A DNA stretch of 37,113 nt, from positions 1 through 37,113 of IMG/VR virus record IMGVR_UViG_3300034523_000183; one strand, written 5' to 3'. Of this stretch, positions 6,083-37,113 are shown piece by piece. Both the position numbers and the translations under genes were made by a program. The DNA comes from a virus. The first letter of the stretch is position 1, and every line of letters begins with the position of its first letter. The notes under the pieces are model-generated. The model had not been told where the DNA came from and did not search any database. It worked only from the letters and a program-made list of their open reading frames with translations.

Positions 6083-8689
6083 TTAAACGTGAGGTTGATC
6101 GAAGAGCTGACCAGCGGCCTGGCGAGCCAGGTTTTCCCGTGACCAGGTTTCCCAGCTGTTGCGGATCATCCCCTCGAGCGAGCGGAACACCTGCTGCGGA
6201 TCCTTGACGTCACCCTGCACCGTGATCGGCATGTTGGGCATGTAGGAGAACTGCTGGTCGACCTTGGGCGGGTCCGCTTTCGGCTTGGCCTGCTCGAGCG
6301 CCTGGGCCACAACGGGCGCCGTGGGAGCGGGCGCTGCAGCTGCGATCGATCGCGCGACATCCCCTGGCGCGGCTTTGTCCTTGTCGGCCTTCGCCACCTG
6401 CTCGTCCTCGCCGAACAGTTTCTTGCCCAGCCAGCCGCCCAGGCCCTCACCGCCAAGGCCGCCGATCGCAGCCCCGATGGCACCACCAATCGCTGTACCC
6501 AAGACCGGCACAACCGAACCGAGCGCCGCACCTGCAGCACCGCCCGCCAGCGCGCCGGCCAATCCGCCCGCCGCACTGCCGTAGCCCTCAGCCTTCTCGT
6601 CCTGGGTTTTCGCGTTCAGGGCTGTCTCGACCACGGTCATGCCTGCATCGAGGATCTTCCCGCCTGGAAGCCTGCCGACCACCTTCGACACCTTGCCGGC
6701 GGCACCCATCATTCGGCCTATCCGCCCGACCTCAGCTGCAGCAGTCGCAGCACCTGCGGCTGCCACACCTGTCGTAGCACCTGCTCGAGCGACTCGGCCA
6801 ACAGCACCCGAAGGAGCGGATCGACGCGGCGCAGGTCCACCCCGGCCCCTGCGCTGCCGGCGGCGCCGTCGACCACCCGGCGCCCCCACGTCGGCCGATG
6901 AGCCAAACCCGCCGAGGTCCTTGGCGTTGACGACAAACACACGCTGTGGCTCGCTCCCGAGGCCACCACGATCATCGTTCGCAGCACCCGCGCCAAACAC
7001 CTTGCCTAAGGCGCCGAGACCTGCATCGACCACCGGATTGCCCGTCTCCGGCAGGTCTCCCTCGCCACCGACGCCGCGCGCCATCCTGCGGCCTCGTGCG
7101 AGGTTGATCACCCCACGCCCAACCTTGATCGCACTGCGTGCCGTGAGGAAAGCCATCACCGCCGCAGCAACGCCCGAAATGCCCATGACCAGCCCAGGCA
7201 GCTTGTCAGACAGATAGGTGATGCCATGAGCGATCTTGGTCAGCCCTGTTGCCAGCAGATCAGTGGCCGGGCGGATCGCATCGCCAATGCTGCGCATCGA
7301 GTCATCCACGGCCTGGCCCAACTCGCTCCACTGCTGCTTGGACGTTTCTCGACGCTCGGCCAGGTTCTTGTCGAGGATGCCCCCTACCTTTTTCGCGTCA
7401 GCCGAATCGGCCTTGAGGGTGTTGTACAGCCCCCGGTTCTGCGCGTAGGCCGTGAGCGCTGCCTTGACCTGCATGTCGGCGAACACATCACCGGTACGCA
7501 GGCTTCTTTCCAGCGCCTCGAGCGACGCCTTGACCTTCTCCGGGTTAGCCTCCTTGTCGATGTTGGCCTGGGCGTCCTTCATCGCCTGGGCCTTCTTCGG
7601 GTCGGTCTTTTCGACGTACTGCATGGCCAGGCCCATGGACGCCTCGATGACGTTCATGCCCTTCTGCAGGCCAGTGTTCAGCGACTTCTGGTAGTCGATC
7701 CCGGCCTTTGCATAGTTCTTCTGGATGTCCCCGGCACCGATCTTCTCTATCCAGTTCTTGAAGTTGTTCGCCGCCTCGTCGGCGCTGCCAGCGGTCTTCA
7801 TCTGCACCTGCAGCATCGAGCCCAGCGAAGTGACCGCATCCAACCCGGTGACACCATTTTTCTCCATGCCGGCCAGCAACTGCGGGAACCACTTGGCCAT
7901 GTCGGACGCTTCGAAGCTGCCCGCTTGGCCTTGGTACGCGATGGCCTCCAACGCCTGCTGCATGACCTTGGGATCGGTGATCTTGGCGTTCTGCTGCAGC
8001 GCCTGGATCATCGCCGCCGTGTCGACGCCCGAGGAGCCTTGGCCGACGGCGAATTTCGCCGCCGTCGGTGCATAGGCCATGGCCTTGTCCACCTCCATAC
8101 CGGCGCCGACCAGTTGGTTGATCAGGTCCGCCACGTCGTTGCGCGACATCCCGGTATCACGCGCGGTATCGATTACCGCACGGCTGAGCTGAGCCTCTTG
8201 CGGCTTGTTGACGATGTCCGACTTGATCGCGATGTCACGGATGATCGCTTGATAGTCCGCACTGATCTTCGTTGGGATCGCCGCCAGACCTGCGCCGACC
8301 ACGGTGGCACCGATGTTGGACTTGAGCGACGACTTGCCCGCATCGATCTGTTGCCGGCCTTTCTGCTGCAGATCTGCAGCTTTCGCTTCACGCCCGAGTC
8401 GCTGGTACTCCTTGGACAGCCGGCCAACCTCGACGCCCTGTTTCTTCAGCGCATCGAGATTGCCCTCCAGGCGCCGCAGCAACCCGGAGGCCGCCGCCGC
8501 GCCGCTGTCGTGCGCCTTCTTCCATTCCTCCCGAAGCTTGATCGTTTCGCCGATGGTGTTCTTCAACACCTTCGCGCGGCTGCCGCTCTCCTCGAGCTTT
8601 TTGATATGACCCTTGGCGGTACCGAATGCCGAACCAAGCGATGCGGCAACGGCCCCGCCGATTTCCAGCGCGATCGCCAGCTTTGCCAT
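6083..8689 (-). CDS. T: Tail tape measure protein (P2 gpT-like)
   Basis: This is the largest tail gene product, 868 aa. It has an N-terminal helical coiled coil, the phage tail tape measure domain (QAIIRDIAIKSDIVNK through MSRNDVADLINQLVGAG, roughly residues 145-230), a hydrophobic stretch near 500-525 (LVMGISGVAAAVMAFL) and a Gly/Ala-rich membrane-active segment near 690-745. It sets tail length and is thought to help DNA cross the membrane. The position directly after the E/E' frameshift pair is diagnostic. An Arg/Gly-rich low-complexity patch near residue 620 (GGRRRRRQRRGRGG) is unusual. Confidence 0.92.
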   Translation of the reverse strand: MAKLAIALEIGGAVAASLGSAFGTAKGHIKKLEESGSRAKVLKNTIGETIKLREEWKKAHDSGAAAASGLLRRLEGNLDALKKQGVEVGRLSKEYQRLGREAKAADLQQKGRQQIDAGKSSLKSNIGATVVGAGLAAIPTKISADYQAIIRDIAIKSDIVNKPQEAQLSRAVIDTARDTGMSRNDVADLINQLVGAGMEVDKAMAYAPTAAKFAVGQGSSGVDTAAMIQALQQNAKITDPKVMQQALEAIAYQGQAGSFEASDMAKWFPQLLAGMEKNGVTGLDAVTSLGSMLQVQMKTAGSADEAANNFKNWIEKIGAGDIQKNYAKAGIDYQKSLNTGLQKGMNVIEASMGLAMQYVEKTDPKKAQAMKDAQANIDKEANPEKVKASLEALERSLRTGDVFADMQVKAALTAYAQNRGLYNTLKADSADAKKVGGILDKNLAERRETSKQQWSELGQAVDDSMRSIGDAIRPATDLLATGLTKIAHGITYLSDKLPGLVMGISGVAAAVMAFLTARSAIKVGRGVINLARGRRMARGVGGEGDLPETGNPVVDAGLGALGKVFGAGAANDDRGGLGSEPQRVFVVNAKDLGGFGSSADVGAPGGRRRRRQRRGRGGPAPRRSAPSGAVGRVARAGATTGVAAAGAATAAAEVGRIGRMMGAAGKVSKVVGRLPGGKILDAGMTVVETALNAKTQDEKAEGYGSAAGGLAGALAGGAAGAALGSVVPVLGTAIGGAIGAAIGGLGGEGLGGWLGKKLFGEDEQVAKADKDKAAPGDVARSIAAAAPAPTAPVVAQALEQAKPKADPPKVDQQFSYMPNMPITVQGDVKDPQQVFRSLEGMIRNSWETWSRENLARQAAGQLFDQPHV

Positions 8690-30750: not shown

Positions 30751-31265
30751 GCGAGTTCACTATCCCCCTGCGTCGGATTATGGTGCTCGAGCGCACTTTG
30801 GAGCATGGCGGTACCGCGACCTGCAAACTGCAACGCCCTGAGACGTCGCTGGATGCCCTCGTCTATGTCGAAAACGACAGCACAACTCACCACATCAAAG
30901 TGACGATGGGGCCGCTTGTCAGCTCTCTGTCCCTCCCACGCAGGCTGGTCACCAAGTGCCAGTCATTGCGCGATTTCCTGCAAGATTTGGCCAATGGCCG
31001 GGCTGACTCTGGCGCCCAGTCCGAAGAAGCAATCGCTCTCATGGAAGCGCAGGAAAGCATTGACGAGGTGCTGTGCGTCGGCCAGATCGCCTATGTCATC
31101 ACTACCGTCAACCGCGACCGCCCCCTGGGCGCGGTGGTGACTAATGACGAAGGCGAAATTTGTGTAGCTGTCACCGCAGCTAGCAAAGAGCTCCTCGCCG
31201 AAGCCGTGCGCGCGAAGCTCTGGCCCGGCCAGGATGGGGTTGGGGGTGCGCATGAGCACGCTTAA
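30747..31265 (+). CDS. Unknown accessory-operon protein
   Basis: This 172-aa soluble protein starts MSEFTIPLRRIMVLERTLEHGG and contains RLVTKCQSLRDFLQDLANG and IDEVLCVGQIAYVITTVNRD. It has an alternating strand/helix look, with no signal peptide or membrane segment. I do not recognise a family. It overlaps both its neighbours (ATGA with the small gene, 13 bases with the PrtN-like gene), so it is a real member of the operon transcribed from the 30522 promoter. Confidence 0.65.
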   Translation: MSEFTIPLRRIMVLERTLEHGGTATCKLQRPETSLDALVYVENDSTTHHIKVTMGPLVSSLSLPRRLVTKCQSLRDFLQDLANGRADSGAQSEEAIALMEAQESIDEVLCVGQIAYVITTVNRDRPLGAVVTNDEGEICVAVTAASKELLAEAVRAKLWPGQDGVGGAHEHA

Positions 31266-31497
31266 GCAACTCCGCCGAGAGTGGCCCACCATCTGCCCGA
31301 CCCTGACTGAAGTGAGAGAACGCTACTTCCCTCACATTGGCTCGGACCGGTATTTCAAAACGTTGATCAACAAGGGGCGTATCGACCTCCAGCTGAGCAA
31401 GATTGAACCCTCTGGGAAGGCTCAGACCGTGGTTTACCTGCATAACCTTGCGGCGTACCTCGACCGCCAAGCAGCACTCAGCACCCAAACCGCTTGA
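31253..31497 (+). CDS. PrtN-family (pyocin activator-like) protein, divergent copy
   Basis: This 81-aa protein aligns with the PrtN-like gene at 32313: ERYFPHIGSDRYFKTLINKGRIDLQLSKIE matches DYFTHLTPLVFQRKVLAGEIKLPITRLE position by position (each shown in part), and both end in a YLDxQ motif. The fold resembles excisionase/MerR-type winged helices. ATG 31253 is chosen because it gives MSTLKQLRREWP and a compact domain; an upstream start at 31234 would overlap farther. It may regulate or act as an excision factor. Confidence 0.65.
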
Positions 31498-32101: not shown

Positions 32102-32316
32102 GCTCCCTTCTCCTAAACGGATCACATAACGACTCCGAGCAAGACGCAGCCGCTTGGGTCGGCCAGGCCGGGCTGTACCGCACTCGACTGGAAGCCTTGC
32201 AGAACGGCGAGCAGCAGATTGAACCAGTTTCCACCGACAGGCTGATCGAGCTCGCACGCAGCCATATGCGCGAGGGCCACAGCTATGCCCAGCCGCGAAA
32301 GGAGAAACATTCATGA
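32098..32316 (+). CDS. Small unknown protein between accessory genes
   Basis: This 72-aa hydrophilic protein (MSSLLLNGSHNDSEQDAAAW..., ending PRKEKHS) has no recognised domain. It overlaps both neighbours by four bases, so translation is coupled through the operon. The middle (TDRLIELARSHMREGH) is likely helical. I assign no function. Confidence 0.6.
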   Translation: MSSLLLNGSHNDSEQDAAAWVGQAGLYRTRLEALQNGEQQIEPVSTDRLIELARSHMREGHSYAQPRKEKHS

Positions 32317-32588
32317 ACACAGCTTTTGTGTTGATGGCGCAGTACAACGGCCAGGCAATCATCTCGCTCGAACAGGTGTGCGCCGACTACTTCACGCACC
32401 TAACCCCGCTAGTATTCCAACGCAAGGTGCTGGCAGGGGAGATCAAGCTGCCTATAACCCGACTTGAATCTAGCCAGAAAAGCGCCCGAGGCATCCATAT
32501 TGCCGATCTAGCTCTTTACTTGGATCAGCAACGGGAAGCTGCGCGCAAAGAGTGCGCGCAGTTGAACAAGACGCTTCGGGCAGGCTAG
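32313..32588 (+). CDS. PrtN-like pyocin activator family regulator
   Basis: This 91-aa protein begins MNTAFVLMAQYNGQAIISLEQVCADYF (in part) and includes RKVLAGEIKLPITR and ESSQKSARGIHIADLALYLDQQ (in part), the characteristic pattern of the pyocin activator PrtN family. PrtN turns on pyocin genes after RecA-dependent loss of PrtR. In prophages this family often lies near the integrase and may act as an excisionase or activator; which applies here is not shown. GGAG lies eight bases upstream of its ATG. Confidence 0.85.
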   Translation: MNTAFVLMAQYNGQAIISLEQVCADYFTHLTPLVFQRKVLAGEIKLPITRLESSQKSARGIHIADLALYLDQQREAARKECAQLNKTLRAG

Positions 32589-32936
32589 CTGGGAGATTGC
32601 ACCTCATTTAGTCCGTTTCACCCGCCCTGACTGTCTGTTTGCACGAGCCTACCATCCAGTTGCATTTAACTCGACCACCCACTATCGATGGCCGGCGATC
32701 GTCGGCTATCGACACATAGCCGCCCTTCACGGAGCACAGCTATCGGCCAAAAGCGGACCTGTTCCCCCTCTACAGAGAGACCGTAGTTTGCAGGCCGTGG
32801 TCAATGTGGGCGCTAAAGGAGCACCATAGATCTTTACTATTTATCGCCATGCAGCGATGATGGCACTTGGCCAAAAGCCATGAATGCAGTTCAAATAAAA
32901 GCTTATATCAACTGATTCACAAATATGAGGGGGCTT
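32589..32936. other. Non-coding gap before the defence cargo
   Basis: No gene is visible in these 348 bases. The left part is GC-rich with a near-palindrome GCCGGCGATCGTCGGC (32691-32706) and repeated CTATCG words, including TATCGGCCAAAAGCGG near 32740, a phrase I recall as common in Pseudomonas intergenic DNA. The right part turns AT-rich. The ariA promoter probably lies here, but I see no clear hexamer pair. The composition switch near 32820 likely marks the edge of the acquired DNA. Confidence 0.5.
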
Positions 32937-34286
32937 ATGAAAATAACTCGAGTAGTGGTTAAAGGACTGTTCGGCGTTTTTGATCACGACATTCCGCTTA
33001 AGAAAGAAAGCGGCATAACTATAATAATTGGCGAAAACGGCTTAGGGAAAACAGTAATACTAGAGTCTATAAATGCCTTCTTCGGCGGAAATTTCAATTT
33101 CTTCACAACCCTTAAATTTGATAAATTTATATTCCACTTCGATACAAGTGAGTGCTGGCACTTAATCAAACAATCCGCGAGTGACGGCATAGCTCTTTCC
33201 ATCGCAAAGGATAACTCCGAAAAACCTTTGCCAAAGCTAAGGTATGACCGAATTTTTCATAAAATCGCAGATTCTCGAGATCCTCGAGATCCTCGAGAGG
33301 TTCGAAGACGCGCAAGGGAGAGAGAACGGAGATATGAGTATGAGCACATACTATTTGACACCTCGCGGGAGGAAGTCACCAGGTATATGATCGAGCGTGA
33401 CATGATGGAACGTGACATGGAACGCCTAATATACGCACGCCATTATGAAAGGGAAAAAATAAGTCCACCCAGGTGGTTTGTAGATGGAGTAGCCAACACC
33501 AACGTCAGCTTAATTGAAACGCAACGAATTATTTCACCAAAAGAGTCTGGGGGCGAGTCATATGTAAGCACTGTAAAACATTGCTCAGGCGAACTAAAAG
33601 AACTGATATCAAAAACCATTAAAGAATCCTCAGACATATCATCCGGCCTAGACAGCACTTACCCAAGCAGATTAATATCAAAACTGCGCGAAAAGACCGA
33701 ATACACATATGATGAGCTCAATAAAGCTCTATCTGCCTTAGATGAAAAACGGAAAAATCTCTCCTTGGCAGGACTAGTTGTGGACGCTCAAGACTCGGTA
33801 TTACCGAAGATCGAGGAAAACCAAGATAACTTGATCACACTGCTAAAGCTTTATATTGATGATAGTTACGACAAGCTTAAACCGTATGACGGCCTCTCTC
33901 AAAAAATCACTTTACTCAGAAGCATAATTAACAAGAGATTCAAGCACAAACAATTAGAGATCAGCAAGGATGAGGGCTTTGTATTTCGCTCCACCGTTAT
34001 CAAGGAGCATGATGGATTCGCAAAAATTCTCCCCTCAAAACTGTCTTCAGGTGAACAGCACGAACTAGTTCTATTCTATAAATTAATCTTCAAATCCAGT
34101 GTAGACGATCTTATTTTAATTGATGAGCCAGAGCTATCACTACACATCTCTTGGCAAAACAAATTCATCGCCGACCTCAAAGAGGTTGCTGCTTTGAATG
34201 CATTCTCAGCAGTAATTGCCACACACTCTCCAGACATAATCTCTGAGAACTGGGACCTCAAGATCGAGCTGATTGGAGTTGAATAA
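32937..34286 (+). CDS. ariA: AriA-like ABC/OLD-type ATPase of a PARIS defence system
   Basis: This 449-aa protein starts MKITRVVVKGLFGVFDHDIPL; AGGGGG lies just upstream of ATG 32937, so the ATG at 32925 is rejected. Walker A is GENGLGKT (32-39), the ABC-like signature KLSSGEQ lies at 368-374, Walker B is LILIDEP with Asp396/Glu397, and a C-terminal switch His430 sits in ATHSP. The middle is helical, with a very charged Arg/Glu/Asp insertion at about 113-160. In PARIS, AriA forms a scaffold that holds AriB and releases it when a phage anti-restriction protein such as Ocr is sensed. It directly abuts a DUF4435 gene. OLD-like ATPases in other systems are the alternative. Confidence 0.82.
   Translation: MKITRVVVKGLFGVFDHDIPLKKESGITIIIGENGLGKTVILESINAFFGGNFNFFTTLKFDKFIFHFDTSECWHLIKQSASDGIALSIAKDNSEKPLPKLRYDRIFHKIADSRDPRDPREVRRRARERERRYEYEHILFDTSREEVTRYMIERDMMERDMERLIYARHYEREKISPPRWFVDGVANTNVSLIETQRIISPKESGGESYVSTVKHCSGELKELISKTIKESSDISSGLDSTYPSRLISKLREKTEYTYDELNKALSALDEKRKNLSLAGLVVDAQDSVLPKIEENQDNLITLLKLYIDDSYDKLKPYDGLSQKITLLRSIINKRFKHKQLEISKDEGFVFRSTVIKEHDGFAKILPSKLSSGEQHELVLFYKLIFKSSVDDLILIDEPELSLHISWQNKFIADLKEVAALNAFSAVIATHSPDIISENWDLKIELIGVE
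33274..33298 (+). repeat. 9-nt tandem repeat inside ariA
   Basis: TCGAGATCC-type units are repeated almost perfectly (CGAGATCCT twice, then a partial copy), encoding Arg-Asp-Pro repeats (RDPRDPRE). Because the unit is in frame, copy-number changes would lengthen or shorten the charged insertion without breaking the gene. Confidence 0.75.
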
Positions 34287-35183
34287 ATGGAGCAATATAT
34301 CACTGCAGACAGAATCGCAAACTCGATAATGCAAGAAGAAAAATTTGAAGGAGGTGCATATCTTTTGGTAGAAGGAGCAAAAGACATAAAGGTATATGGC
34401 CGCCTAGTAAACAAAAATACCGTAAGAGTTAGGCAGACACATGGAAAATACAGACAAAGAGAGGTCTACAAAATCCTCACGGAGCGTGGATTCAAATCTA
34501 AACTTTGCGTTAGAGATGCCGACTTTCTACGGGTTCCCGGGAACGAAAAATATATCCCAGAATACGCGGAAAATATATTTGCGACCGACGGACACGATTC
34601 GGAAATAATGATGATTAGTAGTGAAGCATTAAACAGCCTCTTACTGATCACATCAACCGAAGAAAAAATTAAGTCTTTTGAAAACAAGCATGGCCGTGAT
34701 ATTAGATCGCTTGTACTTGAGCTCGCAAAACCAATAGGATATTTGCGATATGCAAACAAAAAATATAAGCTTGGATTATCTTTTAAACCCGAGCGACCTG
34801 AAGGCAAGGGGATAAAGTTCAAAAAATTCATTTGCGAAAAGAACTTCAAAATGTTCAGCATTGACGCGATGATAAACACTGTTTATGAGTATTCGAAAAA
34901 TCGCGGCCAAGAGGTCAGCTCGCGAGAATCCATCCTGAAAAAATTTCAGGAAGTTTTTGACCTTGACATACCTCCACTGGAACTGGTTAATGGGCATGAT
35001 GCTTCAGAGTTGCTATCGATGGTAATCTCCAAAGGATTGCAGAGTGACAATAAATTAGCTCAAGATCAGGCATCTGTGGAAGGCGCACTTACCTTAGCGT
35101 ATGAGCTCAGATACTTCCATAACTCCAACCTATTCATGGCGCTTCAAAAATGGTCAGCGTCAAATGGAATAAACGTTGTGTGA
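34287..35183 (+). CDS. ariB: AriB-like DUF4435/TOPRIM effector of a PARIS system
   Basis: This 298-aa protein has a TOPRIM-like N-terminus: LLVEGAKD with Glu29, followed by CVRDADF with Asp77 and Asp79, the acidic cluster needed for nuclease action. The TDGHDSEIMM segment and helical C-terminal half fit DUF4435. In PARIS, AriB freed from AriA cleaves tRNA and halts growth of infected cells; tRNA-Lys is a reported target, and I cannot infer the target here. Its ATG follows the ariA TAA with no gap, with GGAG about eight bases upstream. It has the same low GC as ariA, so the pair moved together. Confidence 0.82.
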   Translation: MEQYITADRIANSIMQEEKFEGGAYLLVEGAKDIKVYGRLVNKNTVRVRQTHGKYRQREVYKILTERGFKSKLCVRDADFLRVPGNEKYIPEYAENIFATDGHDSEIMMISSEALNSLLLITSTEEKIKSFENKHGRDIRSLVLELAKPIGYLRYANKKYKLGLSFKPERPEGKGIKFKKFICEKNFKMFSIDAMINTVYEYSKNRGQEVSSRESILKKFQEVFDLDIPPLELVNGHDASELLSMVISKGLQSDNKLAQDQASVEGALTLAYELRYFHNSNLFMALQKWSASNGINVV

Positions 35184-35686
35184 GAAATTAGTCTTTTGCC
35201 GTACGACTTAGGTATACACGCCCTCAAATAGCTTGCCACCCAGGATATTTCTGCGTGGCAAGCACGACGCGTATTGTATTTTCTAATTTGACACCAGATT
35301 ATTAGATGATCTCAATGCCTGCTTTTGGGTGGTATCTCCTATTCGTCAGCGCTAGGGTTAGCAGCTATCGAGCTTGGAGGACTACTATTGGCCGATCTCT
35401 GCCCGTCATGTGAGCTTTCGCAACGGTGCTGGCGCTTAGGTTGTTTAGTACAACGCCAGTCTCAGCAAGTGCAATGTCTCAGACCATAGGTCTCGAGGTA
35501 CTGATTGTGTTTAAATCCCCCCCAATTCTTACACATCTGAATTTCCTCACTAATCTCAAGCACACCCTCCATGAAAGGAAAATTTTGATCGAAAGCTGCA
35601 AGTCGCGGGCAATGGCTTACGACTCACAACGGCATTTCGCAAACGACACGCTAAGACGAATACAACGTTGTGCTCGACTATGCGCA
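35184..35686. other. Non-coding region between ariB and int, with hairpins
   Basis: I see no convincing gene in these 503 bases. A plus-strand frame starting at 35426 runs into the integrase on the opposite strand and has no family resemblance. A perfect 9-bp inverted repeat, GCTTGCCAC (35231-35239) / GTGGCAAGC (35255-35263), lies 47 bp past ariB and may terminate it. Another stem involves CTGGCG (35429) and ACAACGCCAG (35450-35459). The region could also hold remnants or an antisense RNA, but nothing is decisive. Confidence 0.5.
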
Positions 35687-36820
35687 CTACCCAGGCAACA
35701 ACTCAACCCGAGCGCCGAGCTTAACCGGCGCTTGGATAATGTAATCCAACCACTTCCACCCTATATACCGATCTCCTCGTCCGCGCAAATGGGTATAACG
35801 CCGCAGCGAGTTCCAGTCACGATGACCGGAGACACTTGAAACCCTCGGGATATCCCAGTCCATCTCAAACAACCGGCTTACCCCCTCGTGACGCAGGTCA
35901 TGGAAGTGCAGGCCCTCAATACCCGTCATCTTGCACGCCTTTGACCAGGCCGTACCTATCGAATCTGTGTTGTACGGGAAAATCTCAGCACACTCTCGCG
36001 GCATACTCTGCACAATGCTCCATGCCTCATCCGGCAAGTAACACCAGACATCATTGCCAATCTTCTGCCCAGGGTTCTTCATGTCCCGCACCTTCACGGC
36101 CTGCCGGTGGTCATCCAGATCCTCCCAAAGAATGCGGGTGATTTCATCCATCCGCCGCGTTGAATAAATCGCGAACGCCACCACCTTCGGCATATGTATC
36201 ACGCTGGGCCGCCGATCCAGCATCTTGAAGAAGTGCTCCAGCACTTTATCGAGCTCATCCAACGTCGGCCGCCGATCCCGTTCACGGCTTCTCATGTTGT
36301 AGCCGAACTTCTTCAGCACAAGACGCGCATCAGGCATTGCTTGTGGATCGATCTCGTAGCCCCAGGCCGCCCTTGCCAACGACAACACCGATCCTAGGTG
36401 TGCCAGGTTATTACCAACCGTCTGCGGCTTGATCCCCCCCCCTTCTGGACTCATGCGCCACAGTGCATAGTCCACCAGCACCTGCTGGGTGATGTCAGAG
36501 TCCACCTTCTCGCCCAGATAGCTATTCTTGATGGCGTTCAATGTGCGCCGCTTCGTCTCGCCCAGTGGCCGGGCTTTCTCGGCCTCCACCAGATAGCGTT
36601 CGATCATCTGCTTGACCGTGTGCCCCACGCGACTGGCGCGCTCAATCGCACCAGGTTCTGCCAGCTCCGTCTCCCGTCGCTTGGCCCAGGCCACGGCGGC
36701 CTGTTTACGGGCGAACGTCTGGCTCTCTTGGTAGACTGTCACCTTGTCGCGGTTGATGCGGATCTGAGCTGTGTAGCTGAGGGTGCCGTCTGCCTTCTTA
36801 CGGGGTCTGATCGTTGCCAT
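35687..36820 (-). CDS. int: Tyrosine integrase, dusA-targeting
   Basis: This 377-aa protein has the tyrosine recombinase catalytic set: Arg223 in TRRMDEI, His307-x-x-Arg310 in HDLR, His333 in SGHRDW and Tyr342 in RRYTHL. An N-terminal arm-binding region (MATIRPRKKADGTLSYTAQI) is present. I use ATG 36820; the frame extends upstream to 36931 but would cross the attachment region and enter dusA. It is 101 bp from the dusA start, matching the dusA-specific integrase family. It performs integration and, with an excision factor, prophage release. Confidence 0.93.
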   Translation of the reverse strand: MATIRPRKKADGTLSYTAQIRINRDKVTVYQESQTFARKQAAVAWAKRRETELAEPGAIERASRVGHTVKQMIERYLVEAEKARPLGETKRRTLNAIKNSYLGEKVDSDITQQVLVDYALWRMSPEGGGIKPQTVGNNLAHLGSVLSLARAAWGYEIDPQAMPDARLVLKKFGYNMRSRERDRRPTLDELDKVLEHFFKMLDRRPSVIHMPKVVAFAIYSTRRMDEITRILWEDLDDHRQAVKVRDMKNPGQKIGNDVWCYLPDEAWSIVQSMPRECAEIFPYNTDSIGTAWSKACKMTGIEGLHFHDLRHEGVSRLFEMDWDIPRVSSVSGHRDWNSLRRYTHLRGRGDRYIGWKWLDYIIQAPVKLGARVELLPG

Positions 36821-36921: not shown

Positions 36922-37113
36922 ATGACTGCAAAATCAGGCTCTAAGCCAGAAACAATGCGCCCTGAGCCCTCTCGCCGCTTCAGCGTTGCACCGATGATGG
37001 ACTGGACAGACCGCCACTGCCGCTTCTTCCTGCGCCTGCTCTCAAGGCAGGCCCTGCTCTACACCGAAATGGTCACCACCGGCGCCCTGCTGCACAACGA
37101 CGCCCAGCGTTTC
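36922..37113 (+). CDS. dusA: tRNA-dihydrouridine synthase A, 5' part (runs off right edge)
   Basis: 64 codons are visible. [12 protein letters not shown] is followed by [23 protein letters not shown], the FMN-binding start of DusA, then [14 protein letters not shown]. DusA reduces U20/U20a in tRNA. ATG 36955 (before RPEPSRRF) is an alternative start. It is the integration target of the prophage: the reading frame is kept, so the integration event recreated a functional 5' end, with the promoter now prophage-derived or absent. The rest of the gene lies outside the window. Confidence 0.95.

Follow-up and report, generated by a model that had tools for sequence, protein, structure and literature searches.

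A divergent PARIS gene pair in a cargo slot beside the integrase of a dusA-inserting phage

Gene organisation at the right end of the window

The window, the whole stretch of DNA that was analysed, is a virus record of 37,113 bases and carries a PARIS-like gene pair close to its right end. The gene order there is a PrtN-like gene (+), an ATPase gene (+), a TOPRIM/DUF4435 gene (+), a tyrosine integrase gene (–) and the start of dusA (+). The following features were assigned:

32313..32588, + strand: PrtN-like gene that borders the cargo slot on the left, probably encoding an excisionase (recombination directionality factor); Pfam PF11112 (PyocinActivator/PrtN), 105.9 bits
32628..35638, no strand: cargo block with 43% G+C; DNA without detected similarity to related loci (blastn)
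32937..34286, + strand: AriA-like ABC/OLD ATPase, 449 aa; PADLOC, Pfam, PDB sequence match and fold match
33207..33506, + strand: AriA residues 91–190, fast-diverging and strongly charged, putative trigger-sensing part; identity comparison
34287..35183, + strand: AriB-like TOPRIM (DUF4435) nuclease, 298 aa; PADLOC, sub-cut-off Pfam match and predicted fold match
35687..36820, – strand: tyrosine integrase of the dusA type, bordering the cargo slot on the right; Pfam Phage_integrase
36922..37113, + strand: start of the dusA reading frame across the junction, the window ending inside the frame; translation and DNA match to annotated dusA

The list of open reading frames puts the start of the ATPase gene at 32925; the ATG at 32937 is the start common to its relatives and is preceded by a GAGGGGG sequence, with 3 bases in between. 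The stop codon of the ATPase gene directly abuts the next ATG (TAAATG), which leaves two separate frames with a stop between them. The G+C content is 0.43 in the block holding the pair versus 0.62 in the remaining window, and DNA similarity to related loci (blastn) stops at about 32627 and restarts at about 35639, the exception being a 55-base match in locus L019. The first-pass annotation had described the pair as cargo of a dusA-integrated prophage, far more AT-rich than the phage and inserted between a PrtN-like gene and int. The base composition, the Pfam matches of both border genes and the dusA start behind the integrase bear this out.

The PrtN-like gene is probably an excisionase gene, because homologues in two phage records are labelled excisionase and lie next to or overlapping int: in OQ658365 the distance to the integrase gene is 9 bases, and in PQ571161 the gene overlaps an integrase gene annotated as hypothetical. 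A second small PrtN-like open reading frame was seen by eye at 31234–31497, upstream of the probable excisionase gene. No tRNA genes were found in the window. A second copy of the attachment site was not found with a 17-base dusA pattern, which had one exact match (dusA) and one match with 3 mismatches (at 8310). A consensus scan yielded 4 promoter-like matches versus 6.2 expected, no more than chance. Behind ariB, at 35229–35262, a 9-base perfect inverted repeat (GCTTGCCAC / GTGGCAAGC) was noticed by eye; it is absent from the list of the terminator scan.

The first 25 kb of the window matched 8 phage records in DNA pieces covering 2–8% at 72–82% identity, and 7 of the 8 are Pseudomonas phages by name. 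The matches take in the tail sheath and tube genes of PS17 as well as a block annotated as portal protein B, Clp-like protease and major capsid protein E, gene names which we take to be lambda-type. According to the available parts of two papers, Pf-5 prophage 03 is integrated in dusA (PMC4482086), has two prtN-like genes as the window appears to, and combines a siphovirus head with a myovirus-like tail (PMC2647930). The phage of the window fits both Pf-5 prophage 03 and the lambda-head/P2-tail description given to it earlier. Its host is probably a Pseudomonas; the earlier designation as a Pseudomonas prophage is likewise probable, short of proof.

Similarity of the two proteins to AriA and AriB

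For the first protein AriA was the best PADLOC family (82.7 bits), followed by PtuA1 (72.3 bits), and GajA profiles scored as well. Pfam reported AAA_15 with 84.4 bits and AAA_21 with 43.1 bits, both above the thresholds of the PARIS survey (32 and 27 bits, respectively; PMC9122126, available part). The protein sequence found the solved AriA in the PDB with an E value of 1.4e-10, and a profile search gave 74.8 bits to AriA versus 46.2 bits to PtuA. The Walker A residues G32, N34, G35, G37, K38 and T39, the signature LSSGEQ at 369–374, D396/E397 and H430 are all present, and the Walker A, signature, Walker B and switch His residues are invariant in 6/6 aligned AriA proteins, in agreement with the intact motifs that had been read from the sequence at first pass. 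In the alignment with E. coli AriA, E397 is paired with residue 393, the position altered in the solved E393Q sensor (PDB title).

The predicted structure of the ATPase is of medium confidence (pLDDT 63.9). Its best match is 8v46_B (Z 15.0, 331 residues, rmsd 8.6), and the five top structure entries are all PARIS AriA, the others being 8v49_B, 8ux9_C and 8v45_C with Z 13.6–14.8 and 8v47_H with Z 10.2. A retron I-A chain is the next family (Z 8.1), and one PARIS AriA chain, 8v48_H, lies at Z 7.6, below some PtuA and SMC chains. Foldseek gave an E value of 7.4e-13 to AriA and of 1.8e-7 to the first non-PARIS chain. Over the structural alignments the protein is 15–18% identical to E. coli AriA.

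The second protein matched AriB as its sole PADLOC family (39.1 bits). Its Pfam match to DUF4435 reached 23.5 bits, under the cut-off of 27, and neither an HNH nor a helicase domain was found with Pfam. A DUF4435 score of at least 27 bits belongs to the two-protein rule of the original PARIS survey, where it is a detection threshold and not a functional feature (PMC9122126, available part); with the lower score the rule would therefore miss this pair. The TOPRIM residues E29, D77 and D79 are the same in 6/6 aligned AriB proteins, which upholds the earlier description of a TOPRIM/DUF4435 protein with an intact Glu/Asp-x-Asp set abutting the ATPase. Judged from its position in the TOPRIM motif, without an alignment, E29 would be the counterpart of E26 of E. 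coli AriB, a residue given as essential in the available text of PMC12409363.

Sequence searches (phmmer and profile) starting from the AriB of the window did not reach the solved AriB, and 50,697 phage records gave no match at E ≤ 0.01, though a Yersinia phage among them holds one. The AriB model is of medium confidence (pLDDT 76.1). Plain Foldseek returned nothing significant (best E 0.37), and the fold result was obtained by re-aligning Foldseek's 1,000 top chains with VIA-align. The top two chains after re-alignment are from PARIS complexes, 8ux9_A (Z 11.3, 241 residues, rmsd 4.9) and 8v46_D (Z 11.2), and OLD C-terminal domains follow as the next family at Z 6.6; identity to solved AriB is 12–14% over the structural alignments. 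The AriB profile match and the predicted fold speak for a divergent AriB. Structure prediction had been set beforehand as the test on which the proposal of an AriA-AriB pair could fail. Both predicted folds match the solved subunits first (Z 15.0 and 11.3), 34287–35183 lies closer to solved AriB than to OLD, and the PADLOC search suggested along with it names the same two families.

The genes for AriA and AriB are adjacent in all 15 relatives whose neighbourhood was inspected (L003–L007, L010–L013, L035, L016–L018, L104 and L105; a short match, L014, and three plasmid hits were left out). The closest pair found is that of Curvibacter sp. HBC28 (L010; AriA 69%, AriB 59% identity). The Curvibacter stretch (L010:1160-10237) has, as identified by eye, a tyrosine integrase and a replication endonuclease resembling P2 gpA, and could belong to a phage satellite. 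A search of the stretch for tRNA genes found none, and about 0.8 kb of contig follows the pair. The second-closest pair (L035; AriA 50.8%, AriB 44.3%) lies in a prophage with the same integrase type as the window and occupies the same xis-int gap, inverted relative to the window. In the Yersinia P2-type phage vB_YenM_31.17 (OM140653) the pair is situated between cI and int and is 32% and 28% identical; an IMG/VR pair (L011) appears identical to this Yersinia pair (L003). Further distant pairs occur in three IMG/VR records, L011 being one of the three, in Escherichia phage 813R9 and in Vibrionaceae plasmids. AriB matches were obtained in 4/398 sampled genomes of one phylum, Curvibacter among the 4, and in 2/398 genomes of one genus; AriA adjoins AriB in all 5 genome hits other than Curvibacter. 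Searched alone, neither AriA nor AriB found relatives in viral contigs.

The identity between AriA proteins is unevenly distributed. Residues 91–190 are 33% identical between the window and Curvibacter versus 72–88% for the other three segments, and 26% identical between the window and L035 versus 48–63% for the other segments. This part carries 25 K/R and 22 D/E per 100 residues, and the confidence of the AriA model is mostly low over it. Residues 91–190 may take part in trigger sensing, and it is speculative that they diversify towards different triggers; relaxed constraint alone would yield the same pattern of divergence.

The gap between excisionase and integrase

Related loci were collected by their integrase. 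In IMG/VR the best 80 of 382 integrase relatives were kept, to which the window integrase is 71–94% identical; 78 of these loci have a detectable PrtN-like gene, and the two without one, L019 and L093, were left out. Where the integrase is at least 80% identical, 30/33 loci hold 0.6–5.6 kb in the gap between the PrtN-like gene and int, compared with 2/45 filled loci where it is less than 80% identical (Fisher p 7e-16, phylogeny uncorrected). In all but one of the 32 filled loci, the cargo has a lower G+C content than either flank. For whole genomes, 40 of 58 integrase matches in 398 genomes were taken, mainly the best-scoring ones, and 38 of these have a PrtN-like gene; cargo is present in 16/20 loci with an integrase of at least 80% identity versus 1/18 with lower identity. 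Five of the 16 whole-genome cargoes hold proteins identical to those of the IMG/VR sample, and therefore the two samples are not independent. The excisionase gene and int enclose a cargo slot whose content varies and is usually AT-rich.

The cargo itself differs from locus to locus. In a blastp comparison of the window pair with 59 cargo proteins, 61 proteins in all with a minimum length of 100 aa, four pairs were linked, namely the two L021 proteins, L028 with L038, and the two PARIS subunits. The slot cargo includes relatives of AbiU, SIR2 proteins, OLD-type ATPases, a short-Argonaute-associated nuclease domain and a PD-Lambda-5-type methylase, as well as two PARIS pairs, that of the window and that of L035.

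Several fillings are described here individually. L021:8441-13458 encodes a 1301-aa hybrid histidine kinase and an HD-domain response regulator (the same proteins are found in L138); at 60% G+C this cargo is unlike most fillings and is not obviously a defence system. Single large proteins of 590 and 573 aa are encoded by L022:1161-2933 and L031:1786-3507, respectively; neither PADLOC (E ≤ 1e-4) nor Pfam (above the cut-off) gave a match for them, and they are candidates for unknown defence genes. L057:1958-5050, one of the two filled slots in the low-identity integrase group, has a PD-Lambda-5_A-like protein and two further open reading frames. At L019, which has the same integrase type as the window (the integrases share the start MATIRPRKK), a membrane protein and a 669-aa OLD-like ATPase-TOPRIM protein were seen by eye behind int (L019:1243-4526). 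No PrtN-like gene is detectable there. The arrangement is perhaps another slot filling or a rearranged copy.

Fifty cargo proteins, hand-picked from the larger open reading frames, were scanned singly against PADLOC. A first batch of 40 represents 30 of the 32 filled IMG/VR loci (L038 and L043 were left out, as was the AriA of L035, which was compared with the window), and a second batch of 10 was drawn from 10 of the 17 loci with cargo in the whole-genome sample. At E ≤ 1e-4 a match was obtained for 14/50 proteins, all of them in the first 40 and 0/10 in the second batch, one each in L021, L024, L025, L026, L027, L030, L035, L044, L046, L048, L049, L050, L054 and L057; the remaining 36 had no match at this threshold. 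Several of the matches are partial-domain matches; that of L021 lies on the response-regulator domain and that of L025 is weak. The control set consisted of 75 proteins encoded in the same loci beyond the excisionase gene, on the side away from the slot; for these, matches were counted per family and not per protein. Families except DNA methylases account for at most 7/75 control matches; methylase proteins number at least 4, and a total of 14/75 was assumed for one test. Without methylases the Fisher test gave p 0.02 (13/50 cargo versus 7/75 control proteins) and, with the two doubtful cargo matches also dropped, p 0.07; with methylases, under the assumption of 14/75, p was 0.27, the proteins not being independent of one another. 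An enrichment of defence genes in the slot is suggestive only.

Interpretation and comparison with known systems

In our view the pair very probably constitutes a PARIS system of the two-gene form, which a temperate phage carries as cargo for lysogenic conversion. The basis for this is homology, predicted folds, intact catalytic residues, the operon-like order, the conservation of the pair and its placement in the slot.

Another system built from an ATPase and a nuclease (Septu PtuAB, Gabija GajA, a retron I-A effector or a stand-alone OLD protein) could resemble such a pair, the more so as AriA is within about 10 bits of PtuA1 in PADLOC and PtuA, Rad50 and SMC folds come next in its structure lists. 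The fold of the ATPase is, however, about 7 Z units closer to PARIS AriA than to PtuA, and the partner protein has AriB as its sole PADLOC match, PARIS AriB as its best fold match and no HNH or helicase domain in Pfam, which makes this origin highly improbable. Septu, Gabija and stand-alone OLD were rejected on the partner, the gene structure and the fold. In Septu the HNH nuclease PtuB adjoins the ATPase; the neighbours of the ATPase in the window are the TOPRIM/DUF4435 protein and the PrtN-like gene. Gabija GajA and class 1 OLD proteins have ATPase and TOPRIM in one chain; the window has two frames separated by a stop. Equally improbable is a functionless, decaying cargo: the lack of a promoter above chance in the consensus scan and the rarity of relatives (2/398 genomes of one genus) would suit it, but both frames are intact with all checked catalytic residues kept, and intact pairs persist in other elements at 69/59% and 51/44% identity.

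A PARIS-like tRNase-type pair could also serve the phage itself, by excluding related phages or stabilising the prophage, instead of sensing anti-restriction proteins. The phage carries the pair as cargo next to int and the probable xis, and the putative sensor segment of its AriA is unlike that of its relatives, so that the trigger may differ. In E. coli, on the other hand, deletion of either gene was non-toxic and the authors took a toxin-antitoxin function as excluded, according to the available part of PMC9122126. We regard a role in the service of the phage as unlikely, though clearly less remote than the two preceding alternatives.

For PARIS itself, the mechanism would follow E. coli, where AriA holds AriB until a phage protein binds and the freed AriB dimerises and cuts host tRNAs (PMC11455837; likewise the available text of PMC12409363). 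By analogy, the AriA ring of the window system would keep AriB inactive; a protein of an infecting phage (Ocr or Arn are the E. coli triggers) would bind AriA and free AriB, which would dimerise and cleave particular host tRNAs in the anticodon region. Translation would stop and the infected lysogen would give little phage. This mechanism as a whole, with its phage-encoded trigger, is likely by analogy, though less so than the identity as PARIS, and therefore overlaps with the reading of a PARIS-like pair serving the phage itself. Resistance of the host to phages with anti-restriction proteins, suggested in the first-pass annotation, may follow from it; the segment of AriA suspected of setting the trigger is not conserved.

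As a tentative proposal, the xis-int gap could be, in this clade of dusA prophages, a dedicated and rapidly exchanged anti-phage slot with mostly undescribed systems, in which PARIS variants keep the ATPase-nuclease frame, vary the middle of AriA and sense different triggers.

Full-text searches of a limited collection, in parts of the papers, found no paper that describes PARIS in dusA prophages or the slot between their xis and int, and a term search in the main text of a paper on Pseudomonas island hotspots (PMC12629846) found neither PARIS nor dusA. The first-pass annotation had called PARIS in such a phage not well documented; these searches agree with that for the particular setting, but PARIS beside a prophage integrase is known in kind (PMC9122126, available part). 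Near-int prophage slots, too, are already known in kind. The window pair is a divergent PARIS, and the slot is the more useful lead. A PARIS whose nuclease lies under the Pfam threshold of the survey is now placed in a dusA-inserting phage family. Many different cargoes occupy the slot next to the integrase; they are short and mostly AT-rich, and most lack a match to a defence profile. Measuring about 0.6–5.6 kb between two conserved genes, the slot is simple to clone and thus lends itself to a direct screen for unknown defence genes. With the fast AriA segment, PARIS sensing beyond Ocr and Arn becomes testable by segment swaps between close homologues.

The system of the window shares with E. 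coli PARIS (8ux9, 8v45–8v49) the combination of ABC/OLD ATPase and TOPRIM nuclease, both folds, the Walker and TOPRIM catalytic residues and the carriage on a mobile element. It differs in lying beside int of a dusA phage, whereas the E. coli type is found in a P4-like satellite or a P2-like hotspot, and in an AriB of low identity that is not found by sequence. With the ariAB pair of Yersinia phage vB_YenM_31.17 it has the gene order and the position beside int in common; that phage belongs to another family with another integration module, and the middle segment of its AriA is shorter.

According to the available part of Rousset et al. (2022; PMC9122126), 5.2% of genomes carry ariAB, and known systems, PARIS among them, occupy prophage hotspots of Bacillus and, between cI and int, of Vibrionaceae. 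The slot described here is like these hotspots a near-integrase prophage slot with PARIS and other defence genes; unlike them it has a PrtN-like gene on one side and a dusA integrase on the other, and its phage is of the lambda-head/P2-tail type. For dusA-associated islands a prtN homologue was reported in 60/94 cases together with variable cargo (Farrugia et al. 2015; PMC4482086, available part). The window resembles these islands and Pf-5 prophage 03 in its dusA integrase, its prtN homologue and the siphovirus head with a myovirus-like tail. In the available parts of both accounts (PMC4482086, PMC2647930) the cargo is treated as a whole, the xis-int gap and PARIS not being singled out.
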